Source: Paragorgia papillata (Eukaryota; Cnidaria; Anthozoa; Scleralcyonacea; Coralliidae). From it: a DNA stretch of 64,000 bases. The position numbers and the translations under genes were made by a program. This document shows positions 18,675 to 52,442 of the stretch, in pieces (position 1 is the stretch's first letter; each line of letters starts with the position of its first letter). Where the stretch lies: assembly GCA_035771165.1 (NCBI GenBank), contig JAWNZC010000107.1, positions 1-64,000 of the forward strand. Reading direction: 5' to 3'. Below the pieces are notes generated by a model. It was given only the letters and a program-made list of their open reading frames with translations. It had not been told where the DNA came from and did not search any database.

Positions 18675-21369
18675 GTTGACTCTTTGACGATTAGTCTTAG
18701 AGTTACCACAGTCAGATCTGGCGTGGAGGAGTCCTTTGAATACTCTGAACTATTGGTACAGTTATCAACCTCTTGTAAGCTTAGAACTATCATTGTTTAT
18801 AGAACACCACCTTCGGAAGACAGGGTTCCCATAAGCACCTTCTTGAGGGAGTTCTCTAATATCTTGGAATCTGTTATTTTATCGAAGGAACTGTTACTCG
18901 TCCTTGGGGATTTCAATATTCACGTCGATGTCTCTACTGATGCTTACGCTGTGAAGTTCCGTGATCTATTGGTGTCGCTCGGACTTGAACAGCATGCTAC
19001 TAAACCGACTCATATCCATGGCCACACCCTGGATCTTGTTATTACTCGTAAAATGGAGAAACTCATGGGGTCGTCCCCAAGTAGCTGCCGTTACTTTTCT
19101 GATCACGCGGCTGTTCATTGCAGTATTTGCATAAACAAGCCTGCGCCCCAAGCTAAGAGGGTCACTTACAGGAAGACTAAGGCTGTCGATCTCGATTGCC
19201 TCAGGCAGGACTTGGTGAGGTCAGACCTGTGCATGCGAGGTCACGCCGAGCGCTTAACCTATTGTGAAGATCTTGATAAGCTCTTGAATAATTACAACAC
19301 CGCTCTTAGCAGCATAATTGATCGTCATTGTACCACTTAAAACGAAAGTGGTGAGGTCTAGGCCCGAGGTCCCCTGGTACAATCAAGATATTGCCGAGGC
19401 AAAGAGGAAGCGGCGTAAGGCTGAGCGAACCTGGAGGAGGACAAAGTCAGCTGAAGACCTGTTGGTGTTCAAGCGGTTAAGGAATCACGTCACCTACATC
19501 AGTAACAAGGCGCGCAAGGAGTTTTATGTGAATTTCATAGATGAGCAGGGTGGTGATCGGCGTAAACTGTTCAAGGCAACCAAGGCACTTCTCCTGCCAA
19601 AGGATGACATATGTTTTCCCGACTATCATAATAATGTGGCTCTTGCAAATGATATTGGTCGTTATTTTCACCGTAAGATCACTAATATACGCAATGAGCT
19701 TGATGTTGCTGATGTTACTCATGACGAGCTTGCTAGAGTGATTGACGATCCTGAGTTTAATCCTGACTACGAGACACTGCGTGGCTTTAAGGAACTCACC
19801 CGAGAGGATGTGCGCCAGCTTATTGAGGCTTCAGCCAAGAAAAGCTGTATGCTGGATCCTATGCCCACTTCTTTGGTAACGAGTTGCCTCGAAGAACTCC
19901 TTCCAGTCATTACCTCCATGATCAATTCTTCTTTGTCCCTTGGAAATTTTCCAGCCGAGTGGAAAGCTGCTCTGGTCGATCCACGACTCAAGAAAACTGG
20001 TCAGAGTGCTTCTCTCCCGAATTTGAGACCAGTGAGTAACTTACAGTTCGTATCTAAACTGACGGAGACGGCGGTTTGCAGCCAGACTCAGGATCATCTG
20101 TGGTGGTCGGGCCTATACCCTGTGCTTCAGTCAGCCTATCGGGCAGGCCACAGGACGGAAACGGCCCTCCTCAAAGTCCATAATGACATTTTGACTAATA
20201 TGGACCATCAGAGGGTTACTCTACTAGTATTGTTGGACTTGAGCTCAGCGTTCGATACTGTAGATCATCAAGTGCTTCTCCGTCGTCTTGACGTCACTTT
20301 CGGAATAACAGGCATTGCTCTTCGTTGGTTTAGTTCTTATTTAACTGGCAGATCACAGCAAGTGCTAATAAATGGGAGTTATTCGAAGGTTTTCCCCGTG
20401 CTTCATGGTGTCCCTCAAGGTTCCTGTTTAGGGCCACTGCTGTTCACAATATATGCTAGCAAGCTGTTTGAAGTCGTAAAGGACCATCTTCCAGATGTCC
20501 ATGCTTATGCTGATGACACTCAATTATACATCTCTTCCAAGCCTGATTCTGCTGCGAGTGAGTTAGAAGCGGTAACTGCATTGCAGAACTGCATTGCGGA
20601 TATCAAGACTTGGATGACTGTGGACAAACTTAAGTTGAACGATGGTAAAACGGAATTTCTTGTAATCGGAACTCGTGTGCAGCTGGATAAGATAAACATC
20701 ACTGAGCTGAGGATTGGTCAGGTGAAGGTGTCATCGGTATCTAACGTTCGAAATCTCGGGGCGTGGTTTGATAATAATCTAAGCATGAAAACGGCAATCA
20801 ATAAGACCTGTCAATCTGTGATTTATCATTTACACAACATTAGGCGCATTAAGAGATTTTTATGCTTTGAAGATAGAAAAATGATTGTTCAGGCAGTGGT
20901 TATGTCAATAATAGATTACTGTAACAGCTTATTGTTTGGTGTTTCGGCTACGCATCTCAACAAGCTTCAGAGAGTGCAGAATGCAGCAGTCCGCCTGGTG
21001 TGCTCAGTTCCAAAGCACGATCATATCACACCTTCTTTAATTAGATTGCACTGGCTACCAGTTAAATTTAGAGTTAATTTTAAAATTGCAATGCTCGCTT
21101 TTAAATGTATACATGGAGACGCCCCTGAATATCTAAGTAATTTAGTAAATATCAGGAAGATACATCGTTATAGCTTGAGATCAAATACTGGAATATTATT
21201 ACAGGACAACACTGCAAGGTCGAAAAAGACACTAGGAGATAGAGCATTTTCTAATGCCTCAGCAAAAGTATGGAATAGATTTCCTGTTTCAATAAGAAAT
21301 CAGGAGAATTTTAGTATTTTTAAGTCATTGCTCAAGACTCACTATTTTAGAGAAGCTTTTAATGTATAA
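18672..21369 (+). pseudogene. LINE ORF2: endonuclease C-terminus and reverse transcriptase
   Basis: The endonuclease/exonuclease/phosphatase part (about 18690-19130) shows LVLGDFNIHVD and the SDH motif (YFSDHAAVHC). One frameshift lies near 19334, between the frame ending at 19340 and the frame running 19318-21369. The second frame carries RT motifs in order: LRPVSNLQFVSKLTE (about 20020), LLVLLDLSSAFDTVDH (about 20225), GVPQGSCLGPLLF (about 20405) and the catalytic YADDTQLY (about 20508). The C-terminal thumb reads NAAVRLVCSVPKHDHITP and LHWLPVKFRVNFK. Apart from the missing N-terminus and one frameshift it is well preserved, so this insertion is fairly young. Confidence 0.9.
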
Positions 21370-21533
21370 TTTTAGAACTGATCCGTTATATCAGTTATAA
21401 ATAGCTTTCATTGTTTATTTATTTTTATTACTTTATATTAGATATAGCAGTATGTAAAGCGCATTTGATCATAACACTGTATGTTAATTTGCGCTATATA
21501 AGTATTAAATATTATTATTATTATTATTATACC
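18675..21533 (+). mobile_element. L2/CR1-type non-LTR retrotransposon, 5'-truncated
   Basis: The sequence runs from the C-terminal half of the endonuclease through reverse transcriptase to a 3' end reading GCGCTATATAAGTATTAAAT followed by (ATT)n at about 21509-21530. That tail is typical of L2-like elements in marine invertebrates. The 5' half of ORF2 and all of ORF1 are absent, as expected from incomplete reverse transcription. It separates the Polinton ATPase fragment from the Gypsy fragment. Confidence 0.85.
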
Positions 21534-24145
21534 AAGAACTGATGATATTTTAGACTCCCTTAACGGTGCTAAATTATTCACTACTCTAGATTTACGTAGC
21601 GGATACTGGCAGGTTCCCGTTGACCCGGTCGACAAATATAAAACTGCGTTCGCTACACAGGCTGGCCTGTTTCAATTTCGGTGTATGCCATTTGGGTTGT
21701 GCTCAGCGCCATCCACATTCCAGAGAATGATAGAAATTGTGCTTTCCGGTTTAAACCTAATTACTTGTTTGTGCTACCTAGACGATGTCATTATACATTC
21801 CAAAAATTTAGATCAGCATTGGAAACGAATAACAGAGGTTTTTATCACGGTTTCGTCAGCACAATTTGCGCGTTAAGTTCTCAAAATGCACTTTTGGAGC
21901 AAAAAAAGTGACATATTTAGGTCATCGAATTTCATCCGAAGGAATTTCTTCCGATCCGGCTAAAGTAAAGGTAGTACAAACTCTTCAAGCTCCAAAGACG
22001 GTCACAGAAGTCAGGAGTTTCATCGGCTTGGCGGGGTATGATAGACGTTTTGTACCAGATTTTGCTACCATAGCGGCACCACTGACGAATTTAACGAAAA
22101 ACGAACAACCATTTAATTGGACGGGTGAATGCGAAAGCGCGTTTCAAACTTTAAAAAACTTAATTAGTTCAGCACCGATTCTTAAGTACCCTAGTTTCTT
22201 TCGAGGGTTTATTTTACAAACTGACGCGTCGGACGTAGGGCTTGGGGCCGTTCTTTCGCAACTAGATGACAATGGTCACGAAAGACCAGTAGCGTTTGCC
22301 AGTCAGTCACTTAACGCAAGAAAACGTAATTACTCCACGACCGAGAAAGAAGCTTATGCGATTGTGTACGGCACTAAACATTTCAGGGTGTATTTACTGG
22401 GTAGAAAATTTAAGGTAGTAACCGATCACAAAGCACTGACATGGCTCCATAGTATGGAGCCCAAAGGACGAATTGCACGATGGCTAATGGAACTTCAAGA
22501 GTTTCAGTTCACAACACAACATCGGCCGGGCAAACAGAACGCCAATGCAGACGCTTTATCTAGGTTAGAAGTTGATAATAACGCCCAGTCAGCTAAACTA
22601 TTAGACATGCACAGCACCGGTGAACGTTCGCGAGACCAGGGTGACGTCCGATCGTGCGCAGTAACGGTTAACCCCGGCATCAACTTGAAGGAATTACAAC
22701 GCAACGATTGCGCGATTGCTAAGCTTATTGAGTGTAAAAATGAAGGTCGCGGCAAACCGGCATTTAGAGATTGGGCCGGAAAGCCAGAACTACAAAGGTT
22801 TTGGAACGAGTATGACAGGTTGGTCGTACGAAATCATCTGCTATTTCGCATCATAAAGAATAATAACCCAACACCCGCTTATGCATTAGTAATCCCCCAG
22901 CCTCTTATTAAGACGGTCCTAACCGAGGCTCACGATAGTCCATTTGCAGGGCACTTAGGAGTAACGAAAACATTAGAAAGGGTACGGGAACGCTTTTATT
23001 GGCCAGGTATGCGCAAATCCGTAGAAGCACACGTAAGAACATGCACCGTTTGCGCACAGAGTAAGGATCCCAGGGTAACCAATAAAGCCCCCTATATGGA
23101 ATTGAGGTAGGTGAACCTTTTTCGTTTTGGGCAATGGACTATATGGGGCCACTTCCCGAAACAACACGAGGTAATCGTCATCGTTTGGTAATGATGGACC
23201 ACTTTACCAAATGGTGTGAAGCAGTGCCAACTAAAGATCAAAAGGCCAGTACAGTTGCACCTATATTAGTGAGCAAGATCTTCTCTAGATTTGGCCCACC
23301 TACTGTCCTCCATTCGGATCAGGGTGCGAATTTTGAAAGTAACCTCGTGCATAATCTTTGCGACGCAATGGGAATTACAAAGACGAGAATGACGGCGTAT
23401 CACCCTAGTGGCGATGGGCTTGTAGGACGCCAGAATCGGACGTTGCAAGGCATGCTAGCAACCTTTGTTTCGGAACACTCAGATGACTGGGATTTGTGGG
23501 TTGATCCAGTCATTTACGCATATAACTCCAGTCGTCAGGAGTCGACCAGTTTATCACCATACGAAGTTACATTTGGTCGGTTACCCCGGATGCCCCTAGA
23601 ATTGGAATTAGGATTACCGTTATCTGACCCTAGTGCTGTTAGCGACTACATTCGTTCACTCAGGGGTACTTAGGGATGTTAGACAATTAGCACGCAACAA
23701 TTTAAGTAAGGCCAGGACTCACCAAGCAGAGAGTGGGAACGTAGGCAGGGTTTGGACCCCTTATGGAGTAGGACAGTTAGTGTGGTTGCGTCGACCCAAT
23801 AAGTGGAAGTTCCGTAGTAAGTGGATTGGACCAAACACGATTCTATCGCGTATGGGTGTCATTAAAATGCAGTCAGATAGGACCTTGATAGCACATCACG
23901 ACCAACTTAAACCTTACCATGCGCCTACTGGACTGCCTAATGTCGTTTGTCCTTCTCGAGAGCATGGTGACTTTACTTTTGTTGAACACGACCCATCACT
24001 TCCAGACCCACACCCCCAGGGTGTACTTGCGCCTCCCCCACGGGACCGACCAGCCAGGTTGCGCCAGAACGTCCAAGCACCACATTGGCATCAAGATTAT
24101 TTAGTTTACTTAATTGATAAAAAAACCGAATGTAAAGGTAAGTAA
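21534..24145 (+). pseudogene. Gypsy Pol: RT, RNase H, integrase, frameshifted
   Basis: RT starts mid-domain with LFTTLDLRSGYWQVPV and shows the catalytic YLDD (about 21777). A frame break at about 21850-21870 leads into the frame 21866-23110, with the RT/RNase H connection, RNase H (QTDASDVGLGAVLSQ, about 22215) and the H2C2 zinc finger of integrase (GHLGVTK to CTVCAQSKD, about 22950-23060). After a stop at 23110 the integrase core continues at 23134-23673 with D1 (AMDYMGPLP) and D2 (LHSDQGANFES). The position of the catalytic glutamate in GLVERxNRTL is glycine here (GLVGRQNRTL, about 23418). The tail frame 23633-24145 has the GPY-like C-terminal region. Dead through three frame breaks and a lost catalytic residue. 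Confidence 0.9.
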
Positions 24146-24243
24146 GTTGGCTAGGCAAACCAGTACCGAACTGTTTTTATTCAAGTAGCACATAGTTGTT
24201 TTTGTTTTGTTTTCGGGGACGAAAACCTTAAGGAGGGGGATAG

Positions 24244-24461
24244 TGTAGCGTATTGACAATTGTAATATAATTAGTTTGTTAGATAATGGATTTATCATGA
24301 AATGTTAAAAGACATGAACATCCTTTTACGTAATGGTGGTTGTCCCACTCTTCCTGTGTAAACATATATTAAACAGCGAATGTTAAGAATAAAGATCAGA
24401 TTGAAATTGAGTTTTGTGTTAGTTTTGTCCAAGTGAAGTTTGAGGTACTCGACACGCTACA
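24244..24461 (+). repeat. Gypsy 3' LTR (218 bp)
   Basis: Starts TGTAGCG and ends CGCTACA, preceded by the purine-rich tract AAGGAGGGGGATAG that would prime plus-strand synthesis. AATAAAG at about 24390 may be its polyadenylation signal. The 5' LTR is not in the window. Confidence 0.85.
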
Positions 24462-25857
24462 TAAACACAATTTTCTCAGCCGCTATTCTATACGATTTTT
24501 TAAAATTTATATATGTTATACAGAATTTCATGCACTTTAATCTAGTATAAGTCCCCAGAGTGGCATAGACCCATGAACGACGCAGGCAAGCTTTAAAGAA
24601 ATTGCGGCGCAGCGTCATGAATGCGACTGACGGGGGTTGCGTTGCATATTTTAGATTTCCTCAGAAAAAGTACAATTTTCTCAGGCGCTATTCTATACGA
24701 TTTTTTTAATTTTACATATGTTATACAGAATTTCATGCTCTTTAAATCTAGTATAAGTCCCAAGAGTGGCATAGACCCATGAACGACGCACTTTAATCTA
24801 GTATAAGTCCCCAGAGTGGCATGGACCCATGAACGACGCCGGGAAGCTTTAAACAAATTGCGGCGCGGCGTTATTAATACGACTGACGGGGGTTAGGTTG
24901 TATATTTCATATTTCATCAGATATAAACACAATTTTCTCAGCCGCTATTCTATACGATTTTTTAAAATTTATATATTTTATACAGAATTTCATGAACTTT
25001 AATCTAGTATAAGTCCCCAGAGTGGCATAGACCCATGAACGACGCAGGCAAGCTTTAAACAAATTTCGGCGCGGCGTCATTAATACGACTGACGGCGCTT
25101 GCGTTGCATATTTCAGATTACATCAGATATAAACACACTTTTCTCAGGCGCTATTCTATACGATTTTTTAAAATTTATATATGTTACACAGAATTTCACG
25201 CACTTTAATCTAGTATAAGTCCCCTGAGTAGCATAGGCCCATGAACGACGCAGGCAAGCTTTAAACAAATTGCGGCGCGGCGTCATTAATACGACTGACG
25301 GCGCTTGCGTTGCATATTTCAGATTACATCAGATATAAACACACTTTTCTCAGGCGCTATTCTATACGATTTTTTAAAATTTATATATGTTACACAGAAT
25401 TTCACGCACTTTAATCTAGTATAAGTCCCCTGAGTAGCATAGACCCATGAACGACGCAGGCAAGCTTTAAACAAATTGAGGCGCGGCGTTATTGATACGA
25501 CTGAGGGTGGTTATGTTGCATATTTCATATTACATCAGATATAAACACACTTTTCTCAGGTGCTATTCTATACGATTTTTTTAAATTTACATGTGTTATA
25601 CATAATTTGATGCTCTTTAATGTAGTATAAGTCCCCAGAGTGGCATAGACCCATGAACGACGCACACAAGCTTTAAACAAATTGCGTCGCGGCGTTATTG
25701 ATACGACTGACAGTGGTTATGTTGCATATTTCATATTACATCAGATATAAACACACTTTTCTCAGGCGCTATTCTATACGATTTTTTTAAATTTACATGT
25801 GTTACACATAATTTGATGCTCTTTAATCTAGTGTAAGTCCCCAGAGTGGCATAGACC
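24462..25857 (-). repeat. Satellite A array, reverse orientation, about seven monomers
   Basis: The complement of the marker (AGTCCCCAGAGTGGCATAGA) recurs about every 205 bp, with one shortened unit near 24780-24840 where two copies lie about 70 bp apart. The array is interrupted after GGCATAGACC at 25857 by the palindromic element and continues at 34012. The two arrays were one before that insertion. Confidence 0.95.
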
Positions 25858-26001
25858 AGTAGATAACCCCCCCCCCCCATATAGCGTATCAAAGGGATGC
25901 CGCCTCATTAATATTCAGCGTGACTCACGCACAGTGACTCACGCATGACTCACGCCTGTGACATGATTGGGCAAGATTGGAATAATTATAGTATACATGA
26001 G

Positions 26002-26009
26002 ACTATATA
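26002..26009 (+). promoter_or_regulatory. TATA box of the left-arm 181-aa gene
   Basis: CTATATAAG lies about 30-50 bp before the candidate start codons of the 181-aa gene, suiting RNA polymerase II initiation near 26032. The mirrored box is at about 33860-33867 on the minus strand. Confidence 0.55.
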
Positions 26010-26033
26010 AGCTCGGAGCTTAAATATATATAT

Positions 26034-26579
26034 ATGAAACTATACTCCAAAATGAATAACATAGTTGCGATTATAGATATGGATGGCTTCAACATTGAAA
26101 GAAAATTTTATTGTAAGGAACTCGGAGTTCTTAAAATAGGTGAAAACGAAGGGCTATCTTTCTTCTTCGACATTGGTATTTGGTGGTATGATTTAAGCGA
26201 CCAAGATGAAAAGAATTGTCTCTATGTGAAAAAACATATTCACAAACTTCCGCTGGGTGTACCACCCTGTTCTCAAGCTATTCCACTAAGTCAGCTTGAA
26301 AATATCGTAACGAAACTATACCGGCAAGTCCAAATCAACAAGTACTCAACAATAGCCTACAAAGGGGGGCATTACGAACGAGACCTGCTATCAAGGCTGA
26401 AAATCCCGTCTGTTAACCTAGAGAGTTTCGGCTGCCCCAAAGCCAAATATTTATTCGATGCCTTGGTGTGGATAGAGACCTGTGGAAACCACGAGGAGGT
26501 GAACGCATATCATCACTGCGCTAAAGTGGAGGTGGAAGCTTTTGGGCGCTGGTTATCTGACACAAAAGCAGCTCGCTGA
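26034..26579 (+). CDS. Palindrome 181-aa protein, left copy (possible DEDDh-nuclease-like fold)
   Basis: Not recognised with certainty. The protein opens with a hydrophobic strand ending in two acidic residues (VAIIDMDGF, D15 and D17) and has YKGGHYERDLLSRL at 109-122, NLESFGCPK at 128-136, and a C-terminal cluster C150, H153, H160, H161, C162 followed by VEVEAF. The order acidic pair, glutamate, His-x4/5-acidic recalls DEDDh 3'-5' exonucleases; this is tentative. A histone-type stem-loop follows 22 nt after the stop. Given the TATA position, the second ATG (26052, MNNIVAI) may be the true start, giving 175 aa. A decayed homologue lies at about 49080-49494. The right-arm copy is identical. 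Confidence 0.65.
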   Translation: MKLYSKMNNIVAIIDMDGFNIERKFYCKELGVLKIGENEGLSFFFDIGIWWYDLSDQDEKNCLYVKKHIHKLPLGVPPCSQAIPLSQLENIVTKLYRQVQINKYSTIAYKGGHYERDLLSRLKIPSVNLESFGCPKAKYLFDALVWIETCGNHEEVNAYHHCAKVEVEAFGRWLSDTKAAR

Positions 26580-26601
26580 GTCCATATCATTCTTCAAAAA
26601 C

Positions 26602-26617
26602 GGTTCTTTTAAGAACC
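26602..26617 (+). promoter_or_regulatory. Histone-type mRNA 3' stem-loop (GGTTCTTTTAAGAACC)
   Basis: A six-base-pair stem with loop TTTA, starting GG and ending CC, followed by ATCAAAT and a purine-rich AGTAAAGAG about 13 nt on. This is the layout of metazoan replication-dependent histone mRNA ends (stem-loop then U7-type downstream element). It lies 22 nt after the 181-aa stop codon. Confidence 0.6.
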
Positions 26618-26654
26618 ATCAAATCAGTAAAGAGTACAATGAAATATTCGGTGT

Positions 26655-26870
26655 ATGTCTTCCCCGTATAATAAATCTCACGAGTTTATTGAAGCGACAA
26701 GAGTGTTAAAGATCAGGTGTCATAAAGACGCTCTTGAACGTTTAAGACAATTAGAAAACACTTCAGAGTCCATATTGTATGCACTGTGGCAATTGTATAG
26801 TAATGCGGAGAATCCAGAAATGAAATGTATTCAAGGATATCTTTCTTACTGGAGAGAAAGTAATAAATGA
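26655..26870 (+). CDS. Palindrome 71-aa protein, left copy
   Basis: Not recognised. A small, mostly helical protein rich in charged residues (RVLKIRCHKDALERLRQLEN), with no signal peptide or membrane segment. It starts 37 nt after the stem-loop that follows the 181-aa gene and is followed within 10 nt by AATAAA, so it could be a separate polyadenylated transcript. Identical conservation in both arms is compatible with coding but also with recent arm copying. Confidence 0.45.
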   Translation: MSSPYNKSHEFIEATRVLKIRCHKDALERLRQLENTSESILYALWQLYSNAENPEMKCIQGYLSYWRESNK

Positions 26871-27399
26871 TTTTCTTGAATAAATGTTGTGTTTTGTCTT
26901 AAATATGGCTAATAATTGTAGACACACTTTATATTTTTATCCTAAATCTTGTCTGAAGGAATATAGCGGGTTTTGAACATTCTGAATGATTGAATCTGCT
27001 GAGATAACTTAACTCGAATATTATCTGAATAATCTATGAATATTATATTAGGGTTAGAACCTAACAGAATAAATCATCTTAGAATCATACCTAACTAAAC
27101 CTTCGTTTATAAGTAAAGGAAGATAGAATGAGGAATCACTTTGAGAAGCTGAACTTAGGATACGTACGAATCAAGCCGAAAAGCCGTGAGCTCAGAAAAA
27201 ACATATTGGCACATAGCAATGAAAAGCTTATATATGAATAATATATTAGATATTTGCTTCGCTTTTGAATATTATATTTGATATTTGCTTCGCTTTTGAA
27301 TATTATATTAGATATTTGGTTCGCTTTTGTGATGTTTATACGTATAGGAACCCTTTGAAGTTAAAAAGAGTCGCCTTGAATGGTAGCGAATCGTTATTG

Positions 27400-27508
27400 T
27401 AAACTTAGAAGAACATTATTCGACAGCATCGTTGCTAAAGATTATAGAGTGGTGTATAATAAACGTGTGCTTGTAAATAACTTTGATACTTTACCTTACG
27501 GATTTTAA
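27400..27508 (+). pseudogene. Truncated copy of the 145-aa gene, left arm
   Basis: AGAAGAACATTATTCGACAG at about 27400 and the tail DYRVVYNKRVLVNNFDTLPY, ending at the stop near 27508, match the 5' and 3' parts of the 145-aa frame (28480-28917). The middle is deleted, so this is a shortened, diverged duplicate inside the same arm. Confidence 0.7.
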
Positions 27509-27628
27509 CTTGTGTGTTTGTAAATAACTTTAAACTTTTGTGTATGTTTGTAAATAGGAAACTGAAATTATACATTTTTTATAAACACTATTCATTTGTG
27601 TTATTCTGGTGTGAGGGATAGGAGGTGA

Positions 27629-27753
27629 GATTCAATGATTCAATCTTAGGATTCAATGATTCAATCTTAGGATTCAATGATTCAATCTTAGGATTCAATG
27701 ATTCAATCTTAGGATTCAATGATTCAATCTTAGGATTCAATGATTCAATCTTA
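27629..27753 (-). repeat. 21-bp minisatellite, six copies, left arm
   Basis: Copies of the 21-bp unit ATTCAATGATTCAATCTTAGG. On the minus strand each unit reads as the heptad NPKIESL. The mirrored block is at about 32116-32240. Confidence 0.85.
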
Positions 27754-28089
27754 GAGGGCTTAATGAGGGTCTTTTAGAGCACAGGGGTAGGGGTGGGGGT
27801 CTTGAGTAAATGAGTAAATACTTTATATGGCCCTGGGGGCCTTTTTCGTGGCCCTATCGCCCTATCGCTTGAATACACTCCCTGTCCCCTCTGATCCCCC
27901 ACGCATTCGCCTAACCCGCTTTTTCTCCCTTTTGAGTTAATTTAGAAAAATTCTGAACAAATATGAAAAAGATTGCGTATGTGTGTTGCAAAATATTACG
28001 TTGTATAATAAATATTACTGGGAGTATATTTCGTTAGGAGAATATTAGTTTAGGGGTATATTTCGTTTGTTTTCTTTCAATGATTTGGT

Positions 28090-28105
28090 GGCTCTTAAAA
28101 GAGCC
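28090..28105 (-). promoter_or_regulatory. Histone-type 3' stem-loop, minus strand, left arm (1)
   Basis: Minus-strand GGCTCTTTTAAGAGCC followed by ACCAAATCATTGAAAGA. Stem, loop TTTA, ACCA flank and a downstream GAAAGA all match the histone mRNA 3' signal. A TATA box (CTTATATAAG, 28231-28240) lies about 130 bp upstream on the same strand, so a short TATA-driven, stem-loop-ended RNA of roughly 120-130 nt is predicted. Confidence 0.65.
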
Positions 28106-28388
28106 GTTTTTGTTTTGTTTTGGGTTATATCGCAACCCAGAGACAACCACATGTTGTTGACTCCTGCAAAACATTGCAGCATTCACATTCAAACCATTAG
28201 TTATCCTCCTTAACTCCTTCACGCACTGGGCTTATATAAGTATAGCAACCAACTTTAATTTATACACTTACGATTAAATTTAGATTCCATACACTGAACT
28301 TAACATTTAAGCGATGTGTTGATTAAAATATAGGGACATATATTATGTTTAACTCGAGTAAAGTTTGTCTTCTTTCGAAACATTTGGT

Positions 28389-28404
28389 GGCTCTTAAAAG
28401 AGCC
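28389..28404 (-). promoter_or_regulatory. Histone-type 3' stem-loop, minus strand, left arm (2)
   Basis: Second minus-strand GGCTCTTTTAAGAGCC, followed by ACCAAATGTTTCGAAAGAA. About 80 nt upstream of the hairpin is similar to the region before the 28090 hairpin (CAGCCAAC, TGTGGTTG, CAAACAAC blocks), so the two units are duplicates. Upstream of it, on the other strand, lies the start of the 145-aa frame. Confidence 0.6.
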
Positions 28405-28479
28405 GAGGTTGTTTGCTTTGTGGTTAAACTCCAATCCAATGGCAACCACACCACGTTGGCTGTCCGCAAATCATCATGA

Positions 28480-28917
28480 ATGGTACAGCGATATCCACGA
28501 TCACCGAACGTAATTCGTTTACACATGTTTTGTGTATGGTCGATCGTAGACACTCTGTCGTATTACCTTAAACATTGTCTAGAAGAACATCGAGTATTAT
28601 TCGACAGCATCAGTGACCAGTTAGCCTACTTTAAAAAAATTACAGAACTTGGCAATATAATTCGTCACTATGGTTTAGTATGTTATAAGATTCTCGCACG
28701 TGCAATAGTACAGAAACACGACGTTATGTGTGATATGGTGTACCTTGCTGTTATTTGTGATGTAGCTGATCCAGTTTCTGTAAATATTCCATTTAAGATT
28801 GTACGAGATAGAAATGAAAAGAGTGTTTTAACTAGGAGCGAGAGTAAAGATTATAGGGCTGTATATAACAAACGAGTAATTGTAGATAATTTTGACACTT
28901 TACCTTATGGATTTTAA
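28480..28917 (+). CDS. Palindrome 145-aa protein, left copy
   Basis: Not recognised. A helical protein with two cysteine-containing stretches (LHMFCVWSIVDTLSYYLKHC and LVCYKILARAIVQKHDVMCD) and a distinctive C-terminal tail, DYRAVYNKRVIVDNFDTLPY-GF. The tail is repeated by the truncated copy at 27400-27508. AATAAA follows at the stop codon. The tail faintly recalls the C-terminus of Polinton PolB (the DDKR...DGI-TLA-GH type), but the rest does not. The right copy differs by one residue (H to R). The true start may be further downstream or spliced. Confidence 0.5.
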   Translation: MVQRYPRSPNVIRLHMFCVWSIVDTLSYYLKHCLEEHRVLFDSISDQLAYFKKITELGNIIRHYGLVCYKILARAIVQKHDVMCDMVYLAVICDVADPVSVNIPFKIVRDRNEKSVLTRSESKDYRAVYNKRVIVDNFDTLPYGF

Positions 28918-29035
28918 AAATAAATTTTTAACTTTGCATGTCTGTAAATAATTTTAAAAATTTTGTGTGTGATTGTAAATTGAAATTACATCTTTTATCA
29001 GCACTACCTGTTGTCTTGTTTTGAAGAAAAATAAT

Positions 29036-29109
29036 TGCCAGGTGTGGGATTCGAACCCACGTCTTCTGGGACTTTAAACCCAGCGCCTTAACCATTCGGC
29101 CACCCTCGC
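29036..29109 (-). tRNA. tRNA-like sequence, left arm, non-canonical
   Basis: Minus strand. D arm TGGCCGAATGGTTAAGGCG and T arm GTGGGTTCGAATCCCAC are intact, so both internal polymerase III promoter boxes are present. The anticodon stem CTGGG/CCCAG closes an eight-base loop TTTAAAGT (Leu-TAA or Phe-AAA depending on alignment). The variable region is only five bases although the D arm is Leu/Ser-like. The acceptor stem has two mismatches of seven. No intron. Either a degenerate tRNA or a tRNA-like processing or priming element. Confidence 0.6.
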
Positions 29110-29221
29110 GCTTACATTCAAGGTTCCATATTTTCTCTTCATAAAAAATTGGATCATGGGGTTCCTTGAGGATGCAGAAAGGGTACATGTTGTATTATTC
29201 AAACGGGGCGAATATAAAACC

Positions 29222-29514
29222 CTTAGGATTCAGTCTTGGGATTCAATGATTCAATGATTCAATGATTCAATCTTAGGATTCAATGATTCAATCTTAGGAT
29301 TCAATGATTCAATCTTAGGATTCAATGATTCAATCTTAGGATTCAATGATTCATTCTTAGGATTCAATGATTCAATCTTAGGATTCAATGATTCAATCTT
29401 AGGATTCAATGATTCAATCTTAGGATTCAATGATTCATTCTTAGGATTCAATGATTCAATCTTAGGTTTCAATGATTCAATCTTATGCTTTAATGATTCA
29501 ATCTTAGGATTCAT
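29222..29514 (-). CDS. Heptad-repeat coiled-coil frame on 21-bp minisatellite, left arm
   Basis: Minus-strand frame 29514-29251 codes about twelve tandem heptads of the form NPKIESL, with isoleucine and leucine at a/d spacing, an ideal two-stranded coiled coil, and no other domain. The unit is 21 bp, so any repeat expansion stays in frame. There is no clear promoter, and the upstream neighbour is another minisatellite. It may be only a repeat; the right-arm copy (30354-30617) keeps the frame with one residue change. Confidence 0.3.
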
Positions 29515-29812
29515 GAGTAAATGAGTAACTCATGAGTTACTCATGAGTAAATGAGTAACTCATGAGTAACTCGTGAGTAAATGAGTAACTCATGAGTAAC
29601 TCATGAGTAACTCATGAGTAAATGAGTAACTCATGAGTAACTCATGAGTAACTCATGAGTAAATGAGTAACTCGTGAGTTACTCATGAGTAAATGAGTAA
29701 CTCGTGAGTAACTCATGAGTAAATGAGTAACTCATGAGTTACTCATGGGTAAATGAGCAACTCGTGAGTAACTCGTGAGTAAATGAGCAACTCGTGAGTA
29801 ACTCGTGAGTAA
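29513..29812. repeat. ATGAGTAACTC minisatellite, left arm
   Basis: Tandem GAGTAACTCATGAGTAAATG-type units containing the short palindromes ACTCATGAGT and ACTCGTGAGT. The right-arm counterpart is at 29992-30353 and is about 60 bp longer. Confidence 0.9.
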
Positions 29813-29884
29813 GGAGCACAGGGGGTGGTGGTGAGGGGTGGAGGGGTGGTCGATCGGGACACAGGGACTAATATTAGTCCCCCA

Positions 29885-29925
29885 GGGACACATTTGCAAA
29901 GTGAATATTAATTATAGGGACACCG
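29885..29925. other. Central spacer of the palindrome
   Basis: The arms close on ACACAGGGACTAATATTAGT (about 29870) and its near-complement ending at about 29947. The unpaired centre includes CATTTGCAAAGTGAATATTA between two GGGACA words. This is the symmetry point and would be the loop of a giant hairpin. Confidence 0.7.
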
Positions 29926-29991
29926 AGACTCATATTAGTCCCTGTGTCCCGATCGACCACCCCTCCACCCCTCACCACCACCCCTGTGCTC

Positions 29992-30353
29992 CTTACTCAC
30001 GAGTTACTCACGAGTTGCTCATTTACTCACGAGTTACTCACGAGTTGCTCATTTACCCATGAGTAACTCATGAGTTACTCATTTACTCATGAGTTACTCA
30101 TGAGTTACTCATTTACTCACGAGTTACTCACGAGTTACTCATTTACTCATGAGTAACTCACGAGTTACTCATTTACTCATGAGTTACTCATGAGTTACTC
30201 ATGAGTTACTCATGAGTTACTCATGAGTTACTCATGAGTTACTCATTTACTCATGAGTTACTCATGAGTTACTCATGAGTTACTCATTTACTCACGAGTT
30301 ACTCATGAGTTACTCATTTACTCATGAGTAACTCATGAGTTACTCATTTACTC
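29992..30353. repeat. ATGAGTAACTC minisatellite, right arm
   Basis: Mirror of 29513-29812 with additional units. Confidence 0.9.
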
Positions 30354-30647
30354 ATGAATCCTAAGATTGAATCATTAAAGCATAAGATTGAATCATTGAA
30401 ACCTAATATTGAATCATTGAATCCTAAGAATGAATCATTGAATCCTAAGATTGAATCATTGAATCCTAAGATTGAATCATTGAATCCTAAGATTGAATCA
30501 TTGAATCCTAAGAATGAATCATTGAATCCTAAGATTGAATCATTGAATCCTAAGATTGAATCATTGAATCCTAAGATTGAATCATTGAATCCTAAGATTG
30601 AATCATTGAATCATTGAATCATTGAATCCCATGACTGAATCCTAAGG
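30354..30647 (+). CDS. Heptad-repeat coiled-coil frame, right arm
   Basis: Plus-strand mirror of the left-arm heptad frame (open frame 30354-30617). The third heptad has N in place of K (PNIES). Same reservations about expression. Confidence 0.3.
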
Positions 30648-30758
30648 GTTTTATATTCGCCCCGTTTGAATAATACAACATGTACCCTTTCTGCATCCTC
30701 AAGGAACCCCATGATCCAATTTTTTATAAAGAGAAAATATGGAACCTTGAATGTAAGC

Positions 30759-30832
30759 GCGAGGGTGGCCGAATGGTTAAGGCGCTGGGTTTAAAGTCCC
30801 AGAAGACGTGGGTTCGAATCCCACACCTGGCA
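30759..30832 (+). tRNA. tRNA-like sequence, right arm, non-canonical
   Basis: Same sequence as the left-arm copy: acceptor GCGAGGG/ACCTGGC with two mismatches, anticodon stem CTGGG/CCCAG around an eight-base loop, five-base variable region, perfect T stem, discriminator A. No encoded CCA. Confidence 0.6.
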
Positions 30833-30950
30833 ATTATTTTTCTTCAAAACAAGACAACAGGTAGTGCTGATAAAAGATGTAATTTCAATTTACAATCACA
30901 CACAAAATTTTTAAAATTATTTACAGACATGCAAAGTTAAAAATCTATTT

Positions 30951-31388
30951 TTAAAATCCATAAGGTAAAGTGTCAAAATTATCTACAATTACTCGTTTGT
31001 TATATACAGCCCTATAATCTTTACTCTCGCTCCTAGTTAAAACACTCTTTTCATTTCTATCTCGTACAATCTTAAATGGAATATTTACAGAAACTGGATC
31101 AGCTACATCACAAATAACAGCAAGGTACACCATATCACACATAACGTCGTGTTTCTGTACTATTGCACGTGCGAGAATCTTATAACATACTAAACCATAG
31201 CGACGAATTATATTGCCAAGTTCTGTAATTTTTTTAAAGTAGGCTAACTGGTCACTGATGCTGTCGAATAGTACTCGATGTTCTTCTAGACAATGTTTAA
31301 GGTAATACGACAGAGTGTCTACGATCGACCATACACAAAACATGTGTAAACGAATTACGTTCGGTGATCGTGGATATCGCTGTACCAT
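30951..31388 (-). CDS. Palindrome 145-aa protein, right copy
   Basis: Mirror of 28480-28917, identical except for one H to R change in ELGNIIR(H/R)YGL. Function unknown. Confidence 0.5.
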   Translation of the reverse strand: MVQRYPRSPNVIRLHMFCVWSIVDTLSYYLKHCLEEHRVLFDSISDQLAYFKKITELGNIIRRYGLVCYKILARAIVQKHDVMCDMVYLAVICDVADPVSVNIPFKIVRDRNEKSVLTRSESKDYRAVYNKRVIVDNFDTLPYGF

Positions 31389-31463
31389 TCATGATGATTT
31401 GCGGACAGCCAACGTGGTGTGGTTGCCATTGGATTGGAGTTTAACCACAAAGCAAACAACCTC

Positions 31464-31479
31464 GGCTCTTTTAAGAGCC
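31464..31479 (+). promoter_or_regulatory. Histone-type 3' stem-loop, right arm (2)
   Basis: Mirror of 28389-28404: GGCTCTTTTAAGAGCC then ACCAAATG. Confidence 0.6.
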
Positions 31480-31763
31480 ACCAAATGTTTCGAAAGAAGA
31501 CAAACTTTACTCGAGTTAAACATAATATATGTCCCTATATTTTAATCAACACATCGCTTAAATGTTAAGTTCAGTGTATGGAATCTAAATTTAATCGTAA
31601 GTGTATAAATTAAAGTTGGTTGCTATACTTATATAAGCCCAGTGCGTGAAGGAGTTAAGGAGGATAACTAATGGTTTGAATGTGAATGCTGCAATGTTTT
31701 GCGGGCAGTCAACAACATGTGGTTGTCTCTGGGTTGCGATATAACCCAAAACAAAACAAAAAC

Positions 31764-31779
31764 GGCTCTTTTAAGAGCC
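31764..31779 (+). promoter_or_regulatory. Histone-type 3' stem-loop, right arm (1)
   Basis: Mirror of 28090-28105, with the TATA box CTTATATAAG at about 31629-31638 upstream. Between them a small hairpin GGGTT/AACCC lies near 31732-31748. Confidence 0.65.
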
Positions 31780-32115
31780 ACCAAATCATTGAAAGAAAAC
31801 AAACGAAATATACTCCTAAACTAATATTCTCCTAACGAAATATACTCCCAGTAATATTTATTATACAACGTAATATTTTGCAACACACATACGCAATCTT
31901 TTTCATATTTGTTCAGAATTTTTCTAAATTAACTCAAAAGGGAGAAAAAGCGGGTTAGGCGAATGCGTGGGGGATCAGAGGGGACAGGGAGTGTATTCAA
32001 GCGATAGGGCGATAGGGCCACGAAAAAGGCCCCCAGGGCCATATAAAGTATTTACTCATTTACTCAAGACCCCCACCCCTACCCCTGTGCTCTAAAAGAC
32101 CCTCATTAAGCCCTC

Positions 32116-32240
32116 TAAGATTGAATCATTGAATCCTAAGATTGAATCATTGAATCCTAAGATTGAATCATTGAATCCTAAGATTGAATCATTGAATCCT
32201 AAGATTGAATCATTGAATCCTAAGATTGAATCATTGAATC
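32116..32240 (+). repeat. 21-bp minisatellite, six copies, right arm
   Basis: Mirror of 27629-27753. The plus strand reads as NPKIESL heptads. Confidence 0.85.
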
Positions 32241-32360
32241 TCACCTCCTATCCCTCACACCAGAATAACACAAATGAATAGTGTTTATAAAAAATGTATA
32301 ATTTCAGTTTCCTATTTACAAACATACACAAAAGTTTAAAGTTATTTACAAACACACAAG

Positions 32361-32469
32361 TTAAAATCCGTAAGGTAAAGTATCAAAGTTATTTACAAGC
32401 ACACGTTTATTATACACCACTCTATAATCTTTAGCAACGATGCTGTCGAATAATGTTCTTCTAAGTTTA
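32361..32469 (-). pseudogene. Truncated copy of the 145-aa gene, right arm
   Basis: Mirror of 27400-27508, with the same internal deletion. Confidence 0.7.
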
Positions 32470-32998
32470 CAATAACGATTCGCTACCATTCAAGGCGACT
32501 CTTTTTAACTTCAAAGGGTTCCTATACGTATAAACATCACAAAAGCGAACCAAATATCTAATATAATATTCAAAAGCGAAGCAAATATCAAATATAATAT
32601 TCAAAAGCGAAGCAAATATCTAATATATTATTCATATATAAGCTTTTCATTGCTATGTGCCAATATGTTTTTTCTGAGCTCACGGCTTTTCGGCTTGATT
32701 CGTACGTATCCTAAGTTCAGCTTCTCAAAGTGATTCCTCATTCTATCTTCCTTTATTTATAAACGAAGGTTTAGTTAGGTATGCTTCTAAGATGATTTAT
32801 TCTGTTAGGTTCTAACCCTAATATAATATTCATAGATTATTCAGATAATATTCGAGTTAAGTTATCTCAGCAGATTCAATCATTTAGAATGTTCAAAACC
32901 CGCTATATTCCTTCAGACAAGATTTAGGATAAAAATATAAAGTGTGTCTACAATTATTAGCCATATTTAAGACAAAACACAACATTTATTCAAGAAAA

Positions 32999-33214
32999 TC
33001 ATTTATTACTTTCTCTCCAGTAAGAAAGATATCCTTGAATACATTTCATTTCTGGATTCTCCGCATTACTATACAATTGCCACAGTGCATACAATATGGA
33101 CTCTGAAGTGTTTTCTAATTGTCTTAAACGTTCAAGAGCGTCTTTATGACACCTGATCTTTAACACTCTTGTCGCTTCAATAAACTCGTGAGATTTATTA
33201 TACGGGGAAGACAT
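32999..33214 (-). CDS. Palindrome 71-aa protein, right copy
   Basis: Amino-acid-identical mirror of 26655-26870. Unknown function. Confidence 0.45.
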   Translation of the reverse strand: MSSPYNKSHEFIEATRVLKIRCHKDALERLRQLENTSESILYALWQLYSNAENPEMKCIQGYLSYWRESNK

Positions 33215-33251
33215 ACACCGAATATTTCATTGTACTCTTTACTGATTTGAT

Positions 33252-33267
33252 GGTTCTTAAAAGAACC
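33252..33267 (-). promoter_or_regulatory. Histone-type 3' stem-loop after right 181-aa gene
   Basis: Mirror of 26602-26617, 22 nt after the stop codon of the right-arm 181-aa gene. Confidence 0.6.
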
Positions 33268-33289
33268 GTTTTTGAAGAATGATATGGAC

Positions 33290-33835
33290 TCAGCGAGCTG
33301 CTTTTGTGTCAGATAACCAGCGCCCAAAAGCTTCCACCTCCACTTTAGCGCAGTGATGATATGCGTTCACCTCCTCGTGGTTTCCACAGGTCTCTATCCA
33401 CACCAAGGCATCGAATAAATATTTGGCTTTGGGGCAGCCGAAACTCTCTAGGTTAACAGACGGGATTTTCAGCCTTGATAGCAGGTCTCGTTCGTAATGC
33501 CCCCCTTTGTAGGCTATTGTTGAGTACTTGTTGATTTGGACTTGCCGGTATAGTTTCGTTACGATATTTTCAAGCTGACTTAGTGGAATAGCTTGAGAAC
33601 AGGGTGGTACACCCAGCGGAAGTTTGTGAATATGTTTTTTCACATAGAGACAATTCTTTTCATCTTGGTCGCTTAAATCATACCACCAAATACCAATGTC
33701 GAAGAAGAAAGATAGCCCTTCGTTTTCACCTATTTTAAGAACTCCGAGTTCCTTACAATAAAATTTTCTTTCAATGTTGAAGCCATCCATATCTATAATC
33801 GCAACTATGTTATTCATTTTGGAGTATAGTTTCAT
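33290..33835 (-). CDS. Palindrome 181-aa protein, right copy
   Basis: Identical in sequence to the left-arm protein; see that entry for residues. Upstream TATA at about 33860-33867. Confidence 0.65.
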   Translation of the reverse strand: MKLYSKMNNIVAIIDMDGFNIERKFYCKELGVLKIGENEGLSFFFDIGIWWYDLSDQDEKNCLYVKKHIHKLPLGVPPCSQAIPLSQLENIVTKLYRQVQINKYSTIAYKGGHYERDLLSRLKIPSVNLESFGCPKAKYLFDALVWIETCGNHEEVNAYHHCAKVEVEAFGRWLSDTKAAR

Positions 33836-34011
33836 ATATATATATTTAAGCTCCGAGCTTATATAGTCTCGTGTATACTATAATTATTCCAATCTTGCCC
33901 AATCATGTCACAGGCGTGAGTCATGCGTGAGTCACGGTGCGTGAGTCACGCTGAATATTAATGAGGCGGCATCCCTTTGATACGCTATATGGGGGGGGGG
34001 GGTTATCTACT

Positions 34012-36255
34012 TAGACCCATGAACGACGCAGGCAAGCTTTAAACAAATTGCGGCGCGGCGTTATTAATACGACTGACGGGGGTTCCGTTGCATATTTCAG
34101 ATTACATCAGATATAAACACACCTTTCTCAGGCGCTATTCTATAAGATTTTTTAAAATTTACATATGTTATACATAATTTCATACTCTTTAATCTAGTAT
34201 AAGTCGCGAGAGTGGCATAGACCCATGAACGACGCACACAAGCTTTAAACAAATTGCGGCGCGGCGTTATTGATACGACTGACGGTGGTTATGTTGCATA
34301 TTTCATATTACATCAGATATAAACACACTTTTCTCAGGCGCTATTCTATACGATTTTTTTAAATTTACATATGTTATACATAATTTCATACTCTTTAATG
34401 TAGTATAAGTCCCCAGAGTGGCATAGACCCATGAACGACGCACACAAGCTTTAAACAAATTGCGTCGCGGCGTTATTGATACGACTGACGGTGGTTATGT
34501 TGCATATTTCATATTACATCAGATATAAACACACTTTTCTCAGGCGGTATTGTATACGATTTTTTTAAATTTACATGTGTTACACATAATTTGATGCTCT
34601 TTAATCTAGTATAAGTCCCCAGAGTGGCATAGACCCATGAACGACGCAGGCAAGCTTTAAACAAATTGCGGCGCGGCGTTATTAATACGACTGACGGGGG
34701 TTCCGTTGCATATTTCAGATTACATCAGATATAAACACACCTTTCTCAGGCGCTATTCTATAAGATTTTTTAAAATTTACATATGTTATACATAATTTCA
34801 TACTCTTTAATCTAGTATAAGTCGCGAGAGTGGCATAGACCCATGAACGACGCACACAAGCTTTAAACAAATTGCGGCGCGGCGTTATTGATACGACTGA
34901 CGGTGGTTATGTTGCATATTTCATATTACATCAGATATAAACACACTTTTCTCAGGCGCTATTCTATACGATTTTTTTTAATTTACATATGTTATTAATA
35001 ATTTCATACTCTTTAATGTAGTATAAGTCCCCAGAGTGGCATAGACCCATGAACGACGCACACAAGCTTTAAACAAATTGCGTCGCGGCGTTATTGATAC
35101 GACTGACGGTGGTTATGTTGCATATTTCATATTACATCAGATATAAACACACTTTTCTCAGGTGCTATTCTATACGATTTTTTTAAATTTACATGTGTTA
35201 CACATAATTTGATGCTCTTTAATCTAGTATAAGTCCCCAGAGTGGCATATACCCATGAACGACGCAGGCAAGCTTTAAACAAATTGCGGCGCGGCGTTAT
35301 TAATACGACTGACGGGGGTTCCGTTGCATATTTCAGATTACATCAGATATAAACACGCCTTTCTCAGGCGCTATTCTATAAGATTTTTTAAAATTTACAT
35401 ATGTTATACATAATTTCATACTCTTTAATCTAGTATAAGTCGCGAGAGTGGCATAGACCCATGAACGACGCACACAAGCTTTAAACAAATTGCGGCGCGG
35501 CGTTATTGATACGACTGACGGTGGTTATGTTGCATATTTCATATTACATCAGATATAAACACACTTTTCTCAGGCGCTATTCTATACGATTTTTTTAAAT
35601 TTACATATGTTATACATAATTTCATACTCTTTAATGTAGTATAAGTCCCCAGAGTGGCATAGACCCATGAACGACGCACACAAGCTTTAAACAAATTGCG
35701 TCGCGGCGTTATTGATACGACTGACGGTGGTTATGTTGCATATTTCATATTACATCAGATATAAACACACTTTTCTCAGGCGCTATTCTATACGATTTTT
35801 TTAAATTTACATGTGTTACACATAATTTGATGCTCTTTAATCTAGTATAAGTCCCCAGAGTGGCATAGACCCATAAACGACGCAGGCAAGCTTTAAACAA
35901 ATTGCGGCGCGGCGTTATTAATACGACTGACGGGGGTTCCGTTGCATATTTCAGATTACATCAGATATAAACACACCTTTCTCAGGCGCTATTCTATAAG
36001 ATTTTTTAAAATTTACATATGTTATACATAATTTCATACTCTTTAATCTAGTATAAGTCGCGAGAGTGGCATAGACCCATGAACGACGCACACAAGCTTT
36101 AAACAAATTGCGGCGCGGCGTTATTGATACGACTGACGGTGGTTATGTTGCATATTTCATATTACATCAGATATAAACACATTTTTCTCAAGCGCTATTC
36201 TATACGATTTTTTAAAATTTACATGTTATACAGAATTTCATACTCTTTAAGTAAG
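34012..36255 (-). repeat. Satellite A array, reverse orientation, about eleven monomers
   Basis: Monomers of about 206 bp with a clear three-monomer higher-order pattern. One type carries GGGGGTTCCGTTGCATATTT and AAGTCGCGAGAGTGGC. The next two carry GGTGGTTATGTTGCATATTT, one of them with AAATTGCGTCGCGGCG. The trimer repeats about every 617 bp (34012, 34630, 35247, 35865). The array ends in a shortened monomer at about 36255. Confidence 0.95.
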
Positions 36256-49059: not shown

Positions 49060-49494
49060 GCTAGTCACACATGTGTTAGATATAGATAGAATCTTTTCAA
49101 ATCGGAAAGAATTGTTATTATCGTGAAGTGTCAATTTACGATTTACACACATTGAGGGTATACAATTTTCAAATATATAATGAAGATTTGAAACCTTATT
49201 TTAATTTGCGTGAATACGAGCGAAAGTGTGTTGATTATCAAGTTCACAATATTCACGGATTAAAATTATATACTAAAAAAACCCAAACTATTACACACAA
49301 GGAGAGGTGATGGAATTTTTTAAAGATTTTAACAGAAAAAGGTAATTGCGTGATAGGATTTAAAGATGGTAACTACGAACGAAATTTGTACACGAAACTG
49401 AATGTGCTGTGTGTTAATTTGGAAATTTTCGGCGCATCCAAGTATGAAACACTATGCCAAGAGTATAAATTGGGTGAGAAATGTTGCTCTCATC
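49060..49494 (+). pseudogene. Decayed homologue of the palindrome 181-aa protein
   Basis: VLDIDRIFSNRK at about 49079 corresponds to IIDMDGFNIERK of the palindrome protein. CYYREVSIYDLHT follows after a one-base frame change, and FKDGNYERNLYTKL with VNLEIFGASK (about 49358-49440) corresponds to YKGGHYERDLLSRL with VNLESFGCPK. At least two frame changes are present. The sequence stops at 49494, where the PolB gene of the next element begins on the other strand, so the C-terminal His/Cys cluster is lost. Confidence 0.7.
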
Positions 49495-51591: not shown

Positions 51592-51638
51592 TTCGTCTCT
51601 TTTATTATAGTAGTGAAAAAAAAAAAAAAATCGATTCA

Positions 51639-51667
51639 ATTTCTTATAAGGTAAAATCTTATAAGAA
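51639..51667. terminator. Hairpin, inner copy of the duplication
   Basis: TTTCTTATAAG, loop GTAAAAT, CTTATAAGAAA: an 11-bp perfect stem. Its twin at 52067-52095 follows the stop of the 111-aa gene; this copy came with the 428-bp duplication. Confidence 0.6.
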
Positions 51668-51712
51668 ATCGTACAAAGTTATACTTGTTTACGTTTAACC
51701 GTATATAACTCT

Positions 51713-52140: not shown

Positions 52141-52442
52141 CCTTCCATCAATATGATTGATTCTCTTTTTATGTAAAAAGGAATACAACTTGGATTAACA
52201 CCAAGATGTTTTGCAGCTTTGTAAATGCTTGGAAATTCTATTTTTTCGTCTGAGTCTTTGTTTTCAAAAATAATACAAACCGGTTTGGTAATTTTGTTTT
52301 TGTTATGTGTATCAAAAGATTGGTTTCTTACTAGCGGTATATTAAGTAGTTCACATAACGTTTTTGTGTTCATATTGGATGTGTTTTTAATTCCTTGTTC
52401 TTTTCCCATTCGACGTAATTGTCTAAGTGTAAATGTTGTCAT
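52107..52442 (-). CDS. Small DNA-binding protein, NUMOD1-like C-terminus
   Basis: 111 aa. The N-terminal half (TLRQLRRMGKEQGIKNTSNM, TLCELLNIP) resembles a SAP-like helix-extended-loop-helix. The C-terminal half (FPSIYKAAKHLGVNPSCIPF) resembles the NUMOD1 helix-turn-helix found with homing endonucleases. It probably binds DNA; no nuclease motif is present. Promoter-like TATATAATAAAAGCAATACA precedes the start. Confidence 0.6.
   Translation of the reverse strand: MTTFTLRQLRRMGKEQGIKNTSNMNTKTLCELLNIPLVRNQSFDTHNKNKITKPVCIIFENKDSDEKIEFPSIYKAAKHLGVNPSCIPFYIKRESIILMEGELYTVKRKQV

Follow-up and report, generated by a model that had tools for sequence, protein, structure and literature searches.

The element at positions 25858-34011 of a 64,000-nucleotide stretch of DNA from Paragorgia papillata (referred to here as the window, and corresponding to C107:1-64000, contig JAWNZC010000107.1, in an assembly of 618 Mb and 473 contigs) is a near-perfect palindrome of 8,154 bp. 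Each of its arms carries three protein genes, namely open reading frame (ORF) 1 of 181 amino acids (aa), a 75-aa ORF and a 145-aa ORF. Comparison with other elements in the genome indicates that it represents a genuine palindromic satellite form of Polintons, one that bears genes, is present in many copies and has two arms that evolve in concert. The evidence consists of shared ends, 6-bp target-site duplications (TSDs), many palindromic copies, relatives of Polinton genes, and the concerted arms themselves, all of which are demonstrated below.

The palindrome, its copies and their Polinton relatives

Alignment of the two halves gives inverted blocks at 25858-28162/31707-34011 and 28163-29662/30206-31705, with identity that rounds to 100%. 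In the full alignment, 14 single-base or 1-nt changes separate the halves as far as position 29511, and two of these fall within an inner array of 21-bp repeats; past that point, an array of TGAGTAACTCA repeats differs by 63 bp in length and by a few substitutions. The left arm (25858-29880, plus strand) and the right arm (29926-34011, minus strand) enclose a unique core without a mirror partner, about 45 bp near 29881-29925, the limits of which are approximate. A near-perfect 4-kb palindrome is far beyond chance. An earlier note on this DNA had described a complete 8.15-kb palindrome with a centre of about 40 bp; its coordinates are right and its description is accurate.

Read directly, the left end (25858-25878, plus strand) is AGTAGATAA followed by 12 C, the right end (33991-34011, minus strand) is its mirror image, and the element is bounded by an exact 6-bp TSD, TAGACC, at 25852-25857, where it is part of satellite A, and at 34012-34017. 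Satellite A has the same orientation on both sides, and removal of the insert with one TAGACC leaves, by eye, an ordinary satellite A monomer. Insertion as a unit, which the earlier note had deduced from the mirror ends and the duplication, is supported by the TSD. An assembly fold-back or a one-off chromosomal rearrangement has the near-perfect symmetry in its favour and nothing further. Mirror ends, an exact TSD and satellite flanks in the same orientation mean that the palindrome at 25858-34011 is not a fold-back artefact, and the 14 arm differences, together with more than 12 other palindromic or long-armed copies that have their own TSDs, argue in the same direction; we give this explanation almost no credence for the window copy, and the same-orientation flanks, TSDs and many copies refute it for the family.

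An 18-base end sequence is present at 107 forward and 111 reverse places in the genome, and its backward control at 0. The sample that we examined comprises every convergent pair closer than 10 kb among the end places listed (fewer than the 218 found), 16 pairs including the window; for pairs farther apart than 10 kb, palindromy was looked at in C1 and C91:4110625 only. Half of the sample, eight of 16 (seven of 15 without the window), is at least 80% palindromic with arms 96-99.9% alike: the window copy is 100% palindromic, L017 97%, L022 93%, L023 87%, L010 84%, and L011, L012 and L021 82% each. TSDs are exact in 11 of these unselected pairs, agree at 5 of 6 positions in four, and fail in one. 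Four extra elements (L031-L034), a biased sample picked for the presence of ORF1 in both arms, all have exact TSDs: C399 (9,209 bp, AATAAG) and C176 (7,729 bp, TAGATT) are 100% palindromic, C139 (8,147 bp, TGGCTA) 69% and C467 45%. A further insertion, C91:537251, spans 9,311 bp with the TSD CACATC. In L028, 57% palindromic, the right end was set by the inverted repeat, and the TSD matches at only 2 of 6 positions. A 302-bp module from the centre side of the arm has at least 41 matches, with close convergent pairs at eight loci (C107, C191, C399, C111, C150, C158, C82 and C57). The earlier note had held that the lack of any second insertion would point to an artefact or a one-off event; same-ended palindromes with 6-bp duplications turn out to be many in the source genome.

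A second end family (B), defined by AGTAGTGATA followed by C, has 94 and 97 places in the genome and 0 for its control. The first 10 of 16 listed convergent pairs closer than 10 kb were sampled by end pieces of 1.2 kb. All ten have TSDs (nine exact, one at 5 of 6), and in six the inverted arm fills the whole of the roughly 1.18 kb sampled, with identity of 98.8-99.9%.

The link to Polintons is provided by the 14.5-kb element C91:4110625-4125149, read as two stretches that overlap, which has the same 18-base ends and carries Polinton genes: a GRF zinc-finger ORF, an rve integrase with a chromodomain, several PolB fragments, of which one matches DNA_pol_B_2, and an ORF that weakly matches the Pox_A32 ATPase. 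Its capsid and protease are putative, assigned by ORF order and sequence without a Pfam match, and its 144-aa ORF has weak, below-cut-off matches to E1B-19K (E 3e-4) and Bcl-2 (E 9e-3). Three other elements with these ends, L013, L015 and C1 (L024), contain parts of the C91 gene set, and a 2.4-kb inverted repeat lies inside C1. Inverted ends of the Polinton type are short, about 104 bp in C91, 171 bp in L013, 159 bp in L015 and about 0.8 kb in C1. The end of the window copy matches L015 over about 160 bp at 94-96%, L013 at 85% and C1 at 87-95%. ORF1 is 66% identical to an ORF of C91, and a 25-residue part of the 145-aa ORF shows 72% identity to the 144-aa ORF of C91.

Searches by tblastn with the C91 and L015 proteins gave no match to an integrase, a PolB or a putative capsid anywhere within 25858-34011, where the sole other match at E 0.1 is a chance-like one of 31 residues, and a Pfam scan of the palindrome ORFs found no integrase, PolB or capsid match. 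On this gene content, the window palindrome is not an autonomous Polinton. Among other palindromic or part-palindromic elements, a Polinton-type ORF of 109 aa is present on both arms in seven (L010, L011, L012, L017, L019, L023 and L033), and a single central ATPase-like gene or piece in six (L010, L011, L012, L019, L023 and L028). The central ATPases are only 44-50% identical to that of C91, and these elements are therefore not simple recent deletions of the C91 element; L022 has ATPase sequence on both arms, 88% identical. In many relatives the centre is still present as a single copy, where such a packaging-ATPase-like gene is often found, so that the elements form a range with complete palindromy at one extreme. 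The statement in the earlier note that the terminal repeat is the element holds for the window copy, though not for those relatives. Two features expected of a non-autonomous Polinton derivative, shared termini and a 6-bp TSD, are present, and from their sequences the palindromes look like non-autonomous Polinton satellites.

Concerted arms and their explanation

Quartet columns over 13 pairs of elements contain 239 fixed differences by element and none in either arrangement across elements (239:0:0); the pairs were chosen from 11 elements and are non-independent, and the columns come only from well-aligned stretches. A palindrome copied unchanged while its arms drift apart, so that left arms would match the left arms of sister elements, is ruled out by this count. 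In a comparison of the ORF1 end that covered 11 two-armed elements, 19 of the 22 arms have the partner arm of their own element as nearest relative. Eight of 32 arms had too few aligned letters and were left out (C196_R, C214_L, and both arms of C234, C190 and C232), so that C196_L and C214_R entered as single arms. In the lineage with an ATPase centre, the own partner is nearest for all ten long arms of five elements. The window copy has a symmetric indel: compared with C399 and C139, each of its arms lacks the same stretch of about 855 bp. These comparisons show arms that have been re-matched in each lineage examined. A further symmetric change was observed in C111 (L035/L036), where the ORF1 stop codon is gone in both arms.

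As the probable explanation, held with some reserve, we propose that the palindrome lives as a non-autonomous satellite on a co-resident Polinton (Maverick) family, and that its arms are corrected via a full-length hairpin in protein-primed replication. The abstract and passages of PMC11071308 have Polintons encoding a protein-primed PolB, a passage in PMC12220804 describes 6-bp TSDs as typical of rve integrases, and a reference title in PMC9863843 states that panhandle-bearing single strands can serve as templates in adenovirus replication. The ends held in common suggest mobilisation in trans by the integrase and polymerase of the helper. Starting at these ends, the helper's protein-primed polymerase would displace a full-length single strand, which, because its two halves are complementary, would fold into one long hairpin, or panhandle, with a stem of nearly the whole element. 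Repair or recopying on the hairpin would make the arms identical, after which the helper's integrase would insert the double-stranded palindrome. In adenovirus, a panhandle allows one end to be restored from the other; where the ends are halves, the panhandle would be the whole molecule, and one arm could be corrected from the other in each round. The self-complementary central repeats would be likely points of turn-round or deletion at which the axis shifts. Helper dependence, the hairpin, and the step at which the arms are matched are thus what we infer, and the replication model is likely but unproven. The earlier note suggested that such an element could arise by the folding back and copying of a protein-primed linear genome. 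That idea is compatible with this scheme, but a single fold-back event is insufficient, since the arms were re-matched in each lineage, including the window copy and C111, which have the same centre.

The centres of the elements bear on a rival explanation, in which a single arm is copied by fold-back to form each palindrome afresh, through a template switch in the self-complementary centre, and the likeness of the arms only dates that event. The spacer around the core of the window copy (29811-29995) is found flipped at the centre of C111, 98.4% identical over 186 columns, and is absent from the tested pieces of C399, C191, C57, C150, C158, C82 and C9. Symmetry about other axes is seen by eye in C399, C191, C158, C82 and C150, and C57 is asymmetric through its centre. 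With the spacer in C111 only and other axes elsewhere, the centre must also be remade or deleted at times. That centres vary while the arm module stays the same, that other axes occur, and that self-complementary arrays lie at the centre all fit renewed fold-back. However, the window copy and C111 share both centre and spacer and still differ by element (7:0:0, the sum of 6+1:0:0), so that arm matching needs no new axis. L010, L011, L019 and L023 likewise have one ATPase centre in common, by eye, together with concerted arms, and the shifts of axis may also be explained as deletions of the centre. Renewed fold-back is, in our judgment, improbable as the general source of these palindromes.

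The serious and main rival to hairpin correction retains the identity as a Polinton satellite and has the arms matched by chromosomal gene conversion between inverted repeats, not in replication. The arms of long sex-chromosome palindromes are kept alike by gene conversion; concerted arms around a conserved single-copy centre are its expected outcome, and the window copy and C111 do keep the same centre. Against it stands the drift of arms after insertion, since arms are 1-4% apart in some copies (C58 1.9%, C382 1.0%, C384 3.1%, C214 3.1% and L021 3.9%) and in C382 and C384 reading frames are damaged in one arm only. Arm matching therefore does not last forever after insertion, and the 239:0:0 count would need conversion to go to completion between insertions. 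We consider gene conversion unlikely, though far from negligible, as the process that matches the arms.

Several observations weigh against satellite identity with hairpin correction, the explanation that we prefer. Arm matching could also come from gene conversion; the support comes from sequence comparison, no replication intermediate having been seen, and we came across no work that tests panhandle repair directly in Polintons. The arms that depart from the pattern are C382_R (1.01 versus 1.03%), C384_L and C384_R, each slightly closer to another element in the ORF1-end comparison, and L021_L, which matches another element slightly better, over 486 bp only. The 14 arm differences of the window copy are distributed as free decay would leave them (largest gap 986 bp, P 0.17), which fits a halt of matching at insertion without proving it. 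Seven of the 16 sampled pairs (L009, L013, L014, L015, L016, L018 and L020) are only 0-25% palindromic, and the ends therefore do not require the palindromic form; L019 is 62% palindromic. L010 is the one of the 16 without a TSD, and in four of the ten sampled pairs of family B the arms are shorter or broken. Finally, C91, the best-preserved Polinton examined, shares only about 29-66 bp of end with the window copy, and our confidence in the satellite explanation is slightly lower for the shortness of this shared end.

Genes, RNA features and neighbouring elements

ORF1 lies at 26034-26579 (plus strand) in the left arm, and its mirror copy, with an identical protein, at 33290-33835 (minus strand); 162 relatives were found. 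The residues E29, C150, H153 and C162 are each present in 83 of 85 aligned proteins. In a structure model with a predicted local distance difference test (pLDDT) score of 93.7, E29 falls within the strand 24-35. ORF1 is accordingly predicted to have the ECHC zinc-type tetrad of a MAEL-like nuclease on a DnaQ fold, the tetrad match being one of residue spacing and strand and not of superposed coordinates. Possible DEDDh-like residues occur besides the tetrad, and the C91 homologue has, by eye, D where the E of the tetrad stands. A fold related to that of ORF1 is predicted for an adintovirus protein in a viral structure library, and other DnaQ folds score equally high (DinG 12.2). The Maelstrom family is absent among the Pfam matches of the 85 members, a PDB sequence search with ORF1 returned no Maelstrom chain, searches of Pfam, PHROGs and PDB sequences gave no family for ORF1, and tblastn against viral contigs found no relative; fold and tetrad are what suggest a relation to Maelstrom. 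ORF1 differs from the Maelstrom MAEL domain in having only 181 aa without an HMG box, and in keeping acids and His at DEDDh-like places, where metazoan Maelstrom differs. The Maelstrom fold is used by hosts against transposons, and ORF1 points to a Maelstrom-like protein borne by a transposon itself.

A histone-type 3' stem-loop, GGTTCTTTTAAGAACC, is found 22 nt past the ORF1 stop (26602-26617, plus strand), with its mirror at 33252-33267 (minus strand). In the C91 Polinton the ORF1 homologue is followed by an Rfam Histone3 match (L026:9585-9631), so that such stem-loops stand behind ORF1 in palindromes and behind its homologue in a Polinton. The 75-aa ORF (26643-26870, plus strand; mirror copy 32999-33226, minus strand) crosses the junction of the deletion of about 855 bp in both arms. 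Two more histone 3' stem-loops (RF00032) occur on the minus strand at 28066-28110 (38.4 bits) and 28364-28409 (34.1 bits), with plus-strand mirrors at 31459-31504 and 31759-31803. The two stand in tandem in each arm (28066-28409), by eye with TATA-like sequence close by, and may resemble short RNA genes with histone-type ends. The 145-aa ORF occupies 28480-28917 (plus strand), and its mirror copy, 99.3% identical, 30951-31388 (minus strand). A tRNA-like sequence (RF00005, 53.6 bits), to which ARAGORN assigned no amino acid, lies at 29036-29109 (minus strand) and is mirrored at 30759-30832 (plus strand). This tRNA module also occurs at 99% near the centre of the family B element L089 (C9:2547600-2549400), as one copy among the matches listed, which points to exchange between families with different ends. 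Minisatellites of 21 bp form an outer array (27629-27754, mirror 32115-32240) and an inner one (29227-29513, mirror 30355-30641), and the self-complementary TGAGTAACTCA-type array adjoins the centre (29511-29812; mirror 29993-30357, 63 bp longer). The ORFs, Rfam matches and repeats thus bear out the earlier description of two arms with the same three protein genes, tRNA-like sequence, stem-loops and minisatellites.

Taken with the arm comparisons, these features allow a fuller picture, which we offer tentatively and at somewhat less than even confidence: a long-lived lineage of palindromic Polinton satellites in which the true genome would be one arm, replication via the full-length hairpin would return the halves to one sequence in each cycle, and the lineage would have its own Maelstrom-like nuclease-fold protein, made from mRNAs with ends of the histone type; some branches would also possess a packaging ATPase of their own.

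Elsewhere in the window, the left part of a second element, which belongs to family B, lies in satellite A at 16862-18690 (plus strand). It begins with AGTAGTGATA and 13 C and contains a minus-strand packaging-ATPase-like fragment (18337-18555); no right end for it was found in the window. Retrotransposon sequence with endonuclease, reverse transcriptase, RNase H and H2C2 integrase domains follows it (16862-24500). A separate and more distant Polinton at 49314-58138 has an integrase 39% identical to that of C91 and an A32-type ATPase. It includes an ORF1-like piece (49314-49499) and a 428-bp unit present twice at 100% identity (51296-52152), which would reflect a very recent duplication or an assembly effect.

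Comparison with known systems

The palindrome resembles Polintons/Mavericks (adintovirus-like) in its 6-bp TSD, in its 5'-AG ends, a rule that Polinton ends follow, in an end sequence common to elements with integrase and PolB, and in homologous accessory genes. It differs from them in having no match to the integrase, polymerase and putative capsid genes, and in an inverted repeat that takes up nearly half of the element on each side, compared with about 0.1-0.8 kb in the four same-ended Polinton-type elements measured. With the foldback elements it shares long, internally repetitive inverted arms that make up most of the element, as a passage in each of PMC3573991 and PMC4079207 describes for non-autonomous copies of Galileo and Tetris. 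According to those passages, however, the terminal inverted repeats (TIRs) of Galileo and Tetris reach about 1.26 and 1.74 kb, whereas the arms of the palindrome are 4 kb; they belong to the P or Mutator superfamily, whereas the palindrome ends are shared with Polintons; the TSD of Tetris is 8-10 bp and Galileo is bounded by 7-bp sequences, compared with 6 bp here; and complete Tetris copies are without conserved ORFs, whereas the palindrome arms carry one. For protist Polinton-like viruses, a passage in PMC12220804 reports TIRs of hundreds to thousands of bases. With such TIRs, and with foldbacks that are mostly inverted repeat up to about 1.2-1.7 kb, the claim in the earlier note that no element of this form had been described goes too far. 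A literature search over the titles and abstract openings of the papers listed, with most subscription papers outside its reach, found no description of palindromic Polintons or of a Maelstrom-like protein in Polintons, and no relative of Polintons that is palindromic over several kb, bears genes and has concerted arms.

Multi-kilobase palindromes are usually considered unstable, yet in this single genome, where the elements have about 400 recognisable ends, the palindromic form is common, and its occurrence suggests that Polintons support satellites. The concerted arms document, at the level of sequence, the way in which virus-like DNA with protein priming treats its inverted ends, a record that population data could test. 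Palindromic genomes have reportedly formed out of a single end of linear, protein-primed DNA in adenovirus 12 SYREC and in the Kluyveromyces hairpin plasmid, both said to be laboratory or strain by-products. In comparison with these snap-back derivatives, the palindrome described here is integrated, multi-copy, and a diversified lineage.

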